Positions 1,054 to 51,278 of a stretch of 64,000 bases of DNA are shown in pieces. The DNA is taken from contig DYJN01000003.1 of assembly GCA_020723085.1 (NCBI GenBank), positions 62,001 through 126,000 on the forward strand, in the 5' to 3' direction. The notes under the pieces are model-generated. The model was not told the origin of the DNA. It saw only the letters and a list, made by a program, of their open reading frames with translations, and searched no databases. A program made the position numbers and the translations under genes. Source of the stretch: Arcobacter sp. GTDB taxonomy: Bacteria; Acidobacteriota; Terriglobia; Bryobacterales; Bryobacteraceae. Each line of letters begins with the position of its first letter. The first letter of the stretch is position 1.

Positions 1054-4000
1054 CTACCGCAATTCCTTCAGCCGGAGCCGCGCCTCGAGCAGGTACGGGT
1101 TCAGATCCAGGGCCTTTCGCAGTTCGGCGCGGGCCTGCTCGCGGCGGCCAAGCCCCAAATGCGCCAGCCCGGCAGCCAGATGCGCGTTGGCCTCCCGCAT
1201 CCACGGCGGCCGGCCTTCGCCGAACTTGGCAAAAAACTCGCTCTCGCGGCGGCCTTCGAGCGCCTTCTCCGCCGCGGCGAGGAGGGCCTGGTACAACTGC
1301 CGCACGCGGGCGCTCTGGCCCAGCTTCTCAAGCGAACGCGCTTGGTAGTAGAGCATGGACGCCCCCGCGTCCACGCTGGGGTGCGGCTCTTCATCGGCGC
1401 CGGGCAGCGCGCCGGCGGACTGCTTCCACAGCTTCTCCGCCTCGTCCCTGCGCCCGGCGGCTTCGGCGGCCAAGCCGGCATAGTAGTAGGCCTCCGGCAG
1501 CCGCGAGCCGCGGTAGCCCCGCGTCACTTCCAGGTTCTCGGGAAACTCGACGGCGGCGAGGCAGTCCTTCCAGGCGCCTTCATGGTCCTTCGCCTCCATT
1601 CGCTGATGGCCGCGCAGGAGGTGCGCATCGGTCCAGGCGTCCTGCGCGTTGAAGCGCGCGCCCCCTTCCCAAAGATGGAAATGGCGCTTCTCCATGACGC
1701 TGATGGCCTCGTCGTACCTTCCCGCCAGCGTGAGCAGCGTGACAAACCGGCTCATGGCGTCGTCGCGCTTCTCCGCTGTCGAGCGGTGCTTGTCGAACAG
1801 CGCCAGCCGCTTCTCGACGGGCGTGCGCGAGAACTCATACAGCCTGTCCAGCTCGAACAGGTACAGCGCATCCCCGCTGTTGAGCGAGACTGCTCTTTCC
1901 AGCGCTTCAATGGCGCGCCCGGCGCCGTCCGCCTGCCGCGAATACGCCACGGCGAGATTGCGGTACGCGAGCGCGAAACCGGGGTCGAGCTTCACCACCT
2001 GCTGCCAGAGCCGCACCGCTTCCTCGGGCTGCCGGTCATAGAGGAGCAGACCCAGGTAGCAGGGTGCGCGGGCGTCCTTCGGATCCGCCTGCATGGCGGC
2101 GCCCAGCACATGGATCATTTCGATCTGGAAGGGAAAGACATAGTCATGCGGCTGCGAGGAGGCCAGCCGGTAATGCGCCGCCGCCGTCTCCTTCTGTCCG
2201 AGCCGCTCCATCAGCCATCCGCGCAGGTAGCGCGCCTGCACGTTGGACTGCGGCATGCGGTCCAGAATCCAGTTCGCCTCCAGGTGCATTCCGGCGGTCA
2301 GGCACTCGACCGCCATCTCGAGCCCTTCGGCGGGCTGCTCGCGGAAGATGCGCGCGAGCTCCGCGCCGTCGCGCGAGGCGCGCGGGTCTATGGGATCGAT
2401 GTCGCGGATGCGCCGCCGCGCCTGCGACGCTTCGCCGCCCCGCCCCTGCCGCTCCAGCAGCATGGATTTCAGAAACAGCGCGGGCGTATGAGAAGCGTTG
2501 GTCTCCAGGCTGCGGTCACAGTATGACAGCGCGCCTGGCAGATCGCCGCCGGCCGCGCGGATCTGCGCGATGCGGTAATACGAGGCGGACTTCCAGGCAT
2601 GGCTCCACGCGGCGCGTTGCAGCCAGTCTTCCGCCTCCCGCGCCCTGCCCTGGTATTGCAAAGCGAGTCCCAGATAATACAGCGCATCGGCATCCCTGGG
2701 GCGCGTGTAATTGGCGGTGACGCGCGCCACGGCGCGGCGCAGCAGCCGTTCCGCTTCAGCGAACCTGCCGCGCTTGAGATACAGGATGGCCAGTGCCGTG
2801 TTGTTGCGCGCGTCGCCGGGATCCCGGCGCAGCGCCTCTGCGTAATAAGGTTCCGGCTCCAGCGCCGGATTCTGAAACTGCTCCAGGCGCAGTCCGGTGA
2901 GATACAGCTCTTCCGCCGTGGGCACGTCCTTGGGCTCTCGCGGCGGCGCTGCCGCGGGCGGCAGGGGCAGCTTTTCCGGCGGCGCCGGTTCAGGCTGCCA
3001 GGCGACCAGCTCCCGCCCGCCCATGTCGTACAGGGCGGCTCTCAGCTCCTGAGGCTTCACGCCGGCGGGCAAGGCGGCGGTTTCCTTCAGCGGGTGCGCG
3101 GGATCCAGATCCGCAGTGCGCTCCCAGAGCGGCTGTCCGCTGCGCGTGAGCACGGCGCGAGCCTTGCGGAACCGCTTCGTCACAAAGAAGCCCAGCGCAG
3201 CCTCGCCGCCGCGGATCTCCAGATTGACCGCCGCCTCGCGCGTGGCGTTCTTCACGCCGCCGATCGAGTGGAACGGATACCAGTACTGCGTAATGGCCTT
3301 CACTTCATATGGCTGGAGCCAGGAGTAGTCGGGCTGGTTGTCGCTCCAGGCGCCCACCATCAGCTCCAGATACGGCCCGTCGGTGTCGGACAGGATCCTG
3401 TCCCAAAGCCTGCCGGCAGGACCTGTGCCCCATGTGAAGAACTTCTTGCCGGGAACCTGGTGGTGGTCAGCCACATGCAGCGTGCCCGCCTGGCGGCCAT
3501 GATCGTATCCGGCCAGCCAGTCGTCTGTGTCGTTCCAGGCGAACATCGAGATCGGGCTGGGATGGTTCTTCCACCAGGAGACGTCGGCGCCGCGGGTGAA
3601 GTCGACGCCGCCGTACACGGTGTCGGCGATGGGCCAGCGCGCGAACTCCCGCTTGGCATGCTGCGTGGCGAATTTCGTCGACGGCGGAAAGATCACCTGG
3701 TAGTTCCCGTTCGTGTGAACGGCCACGTTGGCGAAGTACAGCAGTGAGTTCTGCACGGGAGTGGTGTTCAACGCCACGACGTGCGCCTCCAGCACCGAAG
3801 AGCCCGGCCTAAGAGTCAGGGTGACGGCCCAGCGCATCCGGTCACGAAGTTCCAGTTCGCCGACGCTGACGGATTTCGAGCCGTCCTTGTGCTCGTGCGT
3901 GCGGTACAGCACCGGCATGAACGAGGTGGCGCGGTGGTGGTGCGGGATGTTCCATTCGACGCCGCCGGAGATCCACGCTCCCAGCATGCCGATCAGCGCG

Positions 4001-49739: not shown

Positions 49740-49757
49740 TTGCTAGGCTGGAAGCGC

Positions 49758-50069
49758 ATGGACCGGCAGGCCAGGCGCAGGCTTGAAAAACGCGCCGCGA
49801 TCCTGAAGGCGCTCGCCCATCCGGCCCGGTTGATGCTGATCGAAGAACTCAGCCGCGGCGAACGCTGCGTCTGCGAGTTGCATGAGGCCGCAGGCGGGGA
49901 TTTCTCCACCGTGAGCCGGCGCCTGGCGCAGCTCCGCCAGGCAGGGCTGCTTCTGGCGGAAAAGCGCGGGCTTCAGGTTTTTTACCGGCTGAGGAGCCGC
50001 TGCGTACTCCGCCTGCTCCAGTGCGCCGATAACGCGGTGAAGACTGCCTCCAGGGAGGTGCGAAGGTGA
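49758..50069 (+). CDS. ArsR/SmtB-family transcriptional regulator
   Basis: ILKALAHPARLMLIEELSRGERCVCELHEAAGGDFSTVSRRLAQLRQAGLLLAEKRGLQVFYRL. Confidence 0.93.
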   Translation: MDRQARRRLEKRAAILKALAHPARLMLIEELSRGERCVCELHEAAGGDFSTVSRRLAQLRQAGLLLAEKRGLQVFYRLRSRCVLRLLQCADNAVKTASREVRR

Positions 50070-50302
50070 AGATTCAGATTCTCGGTTCCGGCTGCGCCAA
50101 GTGCAATCAGTTGAAAGAAAGCGCGGAAACTGCGGTGCGCGCGCTTGGCTTCGAGTACGAAATCGAAAAGATCACCGATTTCAGGGAAATCGCCCGGATG
50201 GGCGCTCTGGTGACACCCGCGCTCGCCATCGACGGCAGATTGAAGCTGGTGGGGAGGGTGGCTTCGCCGGAGGAAATCAAGCCTTTGTTGAAGCAATCCT
50301 GA
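50066..50302 (+). CDS. Thioredoxin-like redox-active disulfide protein
   Basis: MKIQILGSGCAKCNQLKESAETAVRALG...VTPALAIDGRLKLVGRVAS (CxxC); overlaps arsR stop. Confidence 0.9.
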   Translation: MKIQILGSGCAKCNQLKESAETAVRALGFEYEIEKITDFREIARMGALVTPALAIDGRLKLVGRVASPEEIKPLLKQS

Positions 50303-50312
50303 AAGCCCCTCC

Positions 50313-51278
50313 ATGCCAAGCCTGTTCGCCCCCTACGAGTGGTTCGCGCGCTGGTGTGTGGAGCGCGTGTTCGGGCTGGATCACGCCACGCGGCTCGGAT
50401 CGAGCATCGAATTCTTCCTCTACGACGTGCCCAAAGTGCTGACGCTGCTTCTGGCGGTGAGCTTCCTGGTCGGCACGTTGCAGACGTGGCTTCAGCCGGA
50501 GGCCGTGCGGCGCATTCTCGGCGGCAGGAGGCTGTTCTTCGGCAATGTGGCGGCGGCGGGCATCGGCATCTTCACGCCGTTTTGCAGTTGTTCCGCCGTG
50601 CCGCTGTTCATCGGCTTCCTCAAGGGCGGCGTGCCTCTCGGCGTCACGTTCTCTTACCTGATCTCCGCGCCCATGGTGAATGAAGTGGCGGTGGCCCTGC
50701 TTTGGGGCCTTTTCGGCTGGCGGATCGCGCTCACCTATATCGGCTTCGGCGTGGCGCTCGCGATCGCCTGAGGCGTCGCGATCGGGATGTTGAAGCTGGA
50801 GAAATGGGTGGAGCCGTTCGTCTGGGAGGTGCCCGTGGGAGCGGGCGATGTGGAGGCGATGCCCTTGCGGGCGCGCCTGGCGGAGGGCTGGCGCTCCACG
50901 CGCGAAATCATGGGCAAGGTCTGGCCGTACATCGTGGGAGGGATCGCCGCAGGGGCTTTCATCCACGGCTTCGTGCCCGGCGACCTGGTGATGCGATGGG
51001 CCGGACCGGGCAACCCCTTCGCCGTGCCGGTTGCCGTGCTGCTGGGCGTGCCGCTCTATGCAAACGTCGCCGGCGTGCTGCCGATCACCGAGGCGCTCGC
51101 GGGGAAAGGCATGCCGCTCGGAACCGTGCTCGCCTTCACCATGGCCGTCACGGCCCTTTCCGCCCCGGAGATGATCATCCTCCGCAACGTGCTGCGGCCG
51201 CAACTGCTGGCCGTCTTCATCGCCGTGATGACCGCCGGCATCATTGCCGTCGGCTACCTGTTCAACGTTGTCCTTTGA
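50313..51278 (+). pseudogene. COG0701/ArsP-YraQ-like permease interrupted by one in-frame TGA (50769-50771)
   Basis: 50313-50771 (GIFTPFCSCSAVPLFIGFLKGG) and 50787-51278 (LYANVAGVLPITEALAGKGMPLGTVLAFTMAVTALSAPEMIIL) are in the same frame. Confidence 0.8.

Follow-up and report, generated by a model that had tools for sequence, protein, structure and literature searches.

An in-frame TGA in an ArsP_1 permease gene of a Bryobacteraceae genome: probably a very recent nonsense mutation or a consensus error

Permeases of the ArsP_1/COG0701 family (PF03773) share with the gene described here its length, its layout of two repeats and the motif TPFCSCS, while the latter differs from them by one in-frame TGA at codon 153 which is absent from the compared relatives. 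Two further described transporters belong to the same superfamily. The SO_0444 family Cu/Zn efflux transporter (NF033936) has the CxC motif in common with our permease, which reaches 87.3 bits against this model and stays below its cut-off of 300. For SO_0444 transporters a selenoprotein form has been reported whose selenocysteine (Sec) lies in a UxC motif and not at the end of the first repeat (PMC13188914); we take this UxC to be the CxC motif with Sec in it. The SaoE efflux transporter (NF040736) is matched with 104.5 bits at a cut-off of 325, so that the permease is not a member of this family either. The permease as such is already known, and the locus represents an ordinary gene with a private nonsense codon.

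The permease frame (50313-51278) comprises 321 codons followed by a terminal TGA, and codon 153 is the sole stop interrupting it. This bears out the original prediction of an ArsP/YraQ-like COG0701 permease of about 321 residues whose two halves are in frame and separated by a single TGA at 50769-50771. Translated through this stop, the protein matches the ArsP_1 model across its full length (residues 31-318; 3.1e-65; 220.7 bits at a curated cut-off of 32.3), and each half does so independently (Table 1). A global change of the genetic code, rightly held to be unlikely from the outset, is rejected, TGA being an ordinary stop in this DNA which terminates many genes including the permease itself.

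The permease is preceded by genes for an ArsR/SmtB-type regulator, starting either at TTG 49740 or at the in-frame ATG 49758, and for a small thioredoxin-like protein which carries a CxxC motif and whose gene is free of in-frame TGA codons. As read from the sequence, the stop codon of the regulator gene shares bases with the GTG at which the thioredoxin-like gene starts, and the end of the latter is separated from the permease start by 10 nt. Because of this overlap and the short gap, the three genes, with the permease as the third, look like one operon. According to profile matches they are flanked by an iron-containing alcohol dehydrogenase on the left and an acidobacterial VWA-domain protein on the right.

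Table 1. Features at the permease locus, numbered within the window (the whole 64-kb stretch of DNA analysed)
Feature	Position	Strand	Remarks
ArsR/SmtB-type regulator	49740..50069	+	PF01022 3.9e-11; NF033788 77.3 bits, above cut-off 55
Small thioredoxin-like protein (Thioredoxin_3; MTH895/ArsE family)	50066..50302	+	PF13192 1.7e-23; TIGR00412 90.4 bits, above cut-off 62
Permease part 1	50313..50771	+	152 aa, ends at the in-frame TGA; PF03773 1.9e-33 (50313-50768)
GC-rich hairpin, UGA in apical loop	50740..50800	+	-36.1 kcal/mol, z -4.2
In-frame TGA, codon 153	50769..50771	+	inside predicted transmembrane helix 136-160; Gly or Ala codon in all close orthologues
Permease part 2	50787..51278	+	possible restart at ATG 50787, 163 aa; PF03773 2.7e-28 (50787-51275)

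In all seven close orthologues the permease gene is uninterrupted. Four of these are from congeners (88-91% amino acid and 80-86% nucleotide identity), the remaining three from the same family but different genera (71-75% amino acid identity). The congeners carry GGC or GCA at codon 153, and TGA differs by two bases from the GGC found in most of them. For a wider comparison one genome per species was scanned; 60 loci were fetched and 58 sequences could be aligned at this site, the named relatives being mostly Bryobacteraceae assemblies, followed by Cyanobacteria. The site is occupied by Ala in 25, Ser in 21, Gly in nine and Thr in three of these homologues, while neither Cys nor a stop occurs in any of the 58. 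The alignment of homologues that had been called for to identify this residue hence answers the question, and the relatives with two separate reading frames that would have spoken for a true split were not found, the close relatives all having single ones. As judged from these alignments, no other genome in the comparison carries the TGA, and the disruption is absent from the orthologues, as is expected of a pseudogene.

Among the fetched loci, two (L118 and L119) match a short N-terminal stretch only. In Calothrix sp. PCC 7103 (L117:3001-3522) the orthologue is reduced to its N-terminal part and breaks off at about residue 152-154, adjacent to the codon which corresponds to the TGA here. A search of the remaining genome did not bring up the C-terminal part, and an Rfam search at the break revealed no RNA. 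The orthologue of Planktothrix sp. UBA8402 (L114:43-1025), located on a short contig, exhibits a change of frame near residue 190, which is probably an error of the draft assembly.

Selection on the gene appears undiminished on both sides of the break. In comparison with the nearest congener, dN/dS amounts to 0.091 for residues 1-152 and to 0.064 for residues 160-321, both values falling within the range of pairs of congeners and indicating strong purifying selection; the relaxation downstream of the stop which would characterise a pseudogene is not seen (0.064 in the C-terminal half). At sites where the congeners agree, 23 base changes are strictly private to this genome, 17 of which are synonymous. 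Since selection is intact over the whole gene by both measures, the stop should be young or false; taking bypass into account, the substitution pattern leaves it as very recent, false or bypassed. The private amino acid differences are distributed less evenly, as four of nine cluster at codons 153-159, i.e. in what would be the spacer between two reading frames plus the restart ATG (permutation p about 0.003 assuming uniformity, about 0.008 among variable codons). This clustering is confined to amino acid differences; taken together, the strictly private base changes do not cluster significantly (p 0.09). Apart from the stop all private changes at codons 153-159 are conservative. They include the first base (A) of ATG 50787, which is private among the congeners; Met159 itself is also found in uninterrupted relatives.

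The 9-bp direct repeat TCGCGATCG (50758 and 50776, offset 18) which had been pointed out on either side of the TGA is real. It does not merit special significance, as the window harbours 46 repeats of 9-mers at offsets of 9 to 30, the offset being a multiple of 3 in 37 cases, and the DNA has 66.9% GC. Similarly, the strong hairpin which presents the UGA in its apical loop is matched or surpassed in folding energy by 31 of 6394 windows of 61 nt, and its geometry differs from that of a bacterial SECIS element. It is not evidence of recoding because part of it recurs in congeners that lack the stop, where the corresponding region folds to -18 to -32 kcal/mol.

An insertion of Sec at the permease UGA would at first sight find what it needs in this genome. 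The original prediction had proposed a search for selA, selB and tRNA-Sec, and all three are present: tRNA-Sec (74 bits), SelA, SelB, whose gene contains an additional G, and, beyond these, a SelD that itself contains Sec and is conserved within the genus. At a spacing of 36 nt the permease UGA is followed by a hairpin (-9.5 kcal/mol) which formally lies within the published limits for bacterial SECIS elements, which were used for this test (PMC13188914). However, an acceptable hairpin of this type also occurs at 65% of random sites in the window, the permease ranking near the median. The selD control yields -15.3 kcal/mol at a spacing of 20. No SECIS match was obtained from Rfam, the genome-wide SECIS_1 search being uninformative as it matched no control either. 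In selD the in-frame TGA, with the motif KAAG-U-ASK, is common to three congeners and is followed by a good hairpin; as seen in L139, L140, L141 and L142, the SelD of this Bryobacteraceae genus is a selenoprotein (KAAG-U-ASKLSPKVL), and the hairpin that follows its UGA is conserved. In the permease, in contrast, the UGA is neither aligned with Cys, which never occurs at site 153 in the 58 homologues, nor conserved, the congeners having GGC or GCA there. In addition, the CxC motif of the permease is intact (C91 and C93) and selB is frameshifted in this assembly. On these comparisons Sec recoding at the permease site is unsupported, and we regard it as extremely improbable. Ordinary near-cognate readthrough, if it produced full-length permease in amounts that keep the gene useful, would account for two halves in one frame, the lack of other damage and the low dN/dS. 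Yet one frame and low dN/dS are equally expected with a recent or erroneous stop, and nothing in the relatives points to a recoding site. A C following UGA constitutes a leaky context; here the next base is G, and readthrough is very unlikely.

There are also points in favour of a functional split, with termination at the TGA, reinitiation 18 nt further on at the in-frame ATG 50787 and a permease assembled as two subunits from halves which each roughly correspond to one internal repeat. The first base of that ATG is a private one, the private changes concentrate in the would-be spacer and both halves are still conserved. In the structure model made for the intact congener (37 sequences, mean pLDDT 81) the helices are predicted to form two similar sets (27-160 and 185-320), and the break lies near the boundary between these. 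Furthermore, coupled starts may occur in this operon, considering the overlap of the upstream ArsR and thioredoxin-like genes. According to the model, translation resumed at ATG 50787 would yield the whole second repeat, but in the first one the last helix would be truncated at its end: residue 153 is located within helix 136-160, which the stop cuts after 17 residues, and residues 153-158, including Gly154, invariant in the 37 sequences, and the nearly invariant Gly158, would be part of neither product. Although the second reading frame does possess an ATG, the sole Shine-Dalgarno-like sequence (GAGG) is found, on reading the sequence, 13 nt upstream of it, probably too far for a good site. 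Met159 occurs in uninterrupted relatives as well, none of the close relatives is split, and the same arrangement of two reading frames was not encountered among them. Neither sequence nor fold searches of the PDB brought up an informative match. Altogether we consider a functional split unlikely, and slightly less likely still its full version, a permease newly split within one species into two translationally coupled subunits at the repeat boundary, the stop, a freed spacer and the restart ATG having arisen while both halves are under selection.

We therefore favour, with a probability of roughly 0.83, a private nonsense codon due to a very recent mutation or a consensus error, with no programmed recoding. 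Hence, of the options listed initially, mutation and error are retained, the stop being private and the relatives intact, while the evidence speaks against a true split and against Sec recoding. The locus would then be an ordinary full-length ArsP_1 permease gene with a nonsense codon in this one genome, the TGA would not be a programmed recoding site, and it would either cut the protein short at 152 of its 321 residues or be an error in the consensus of a GC-rich draft assembly. Provided that the base is real, the permease is presumably not made as a working protein. An error is plausible in view of selB, which this assembly gives with one surplus G in a run of five, breaking the frame (contig C72, locus L049 at about 1504-1530, minus strand). 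With the Sec codon and SECIS of selD preserved, selB probably works and its frame was probably broken by a consensus error, which suggests that this assembly contains errors of the kind; the alternative would be a genome on its way to losing Sec decoding. Among 51 genes of the same contig and 41 elsewhere in the genome, permease and selB show the only convincing interruptions, where it should be kept in mind that these rates derive from sampled stretches and that selB was examined because of the Sec question. Several other apparent frameshifts or stops in this genome were rejected, being located ahead of the actual gene start or in reading frames that lack support. Against the favoured reading stand the two-base difference from the GGC of most congeners and the cluster of four of nine amino acid differences at codons 153-159, which a single wrong base does not predict, even though all changes there but the stop are conservative. 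Mutation and error appear about equally likely.

The locus calls for caution: a UGA in frame that coincides with a strong hairpin in a genome which decodes Sec looks like recoding, but the case does not survive comparison with the relatives. Were the split true, unlikely as it is, it would offer a snapshot of a repeat-based transporter becoming two subunits.
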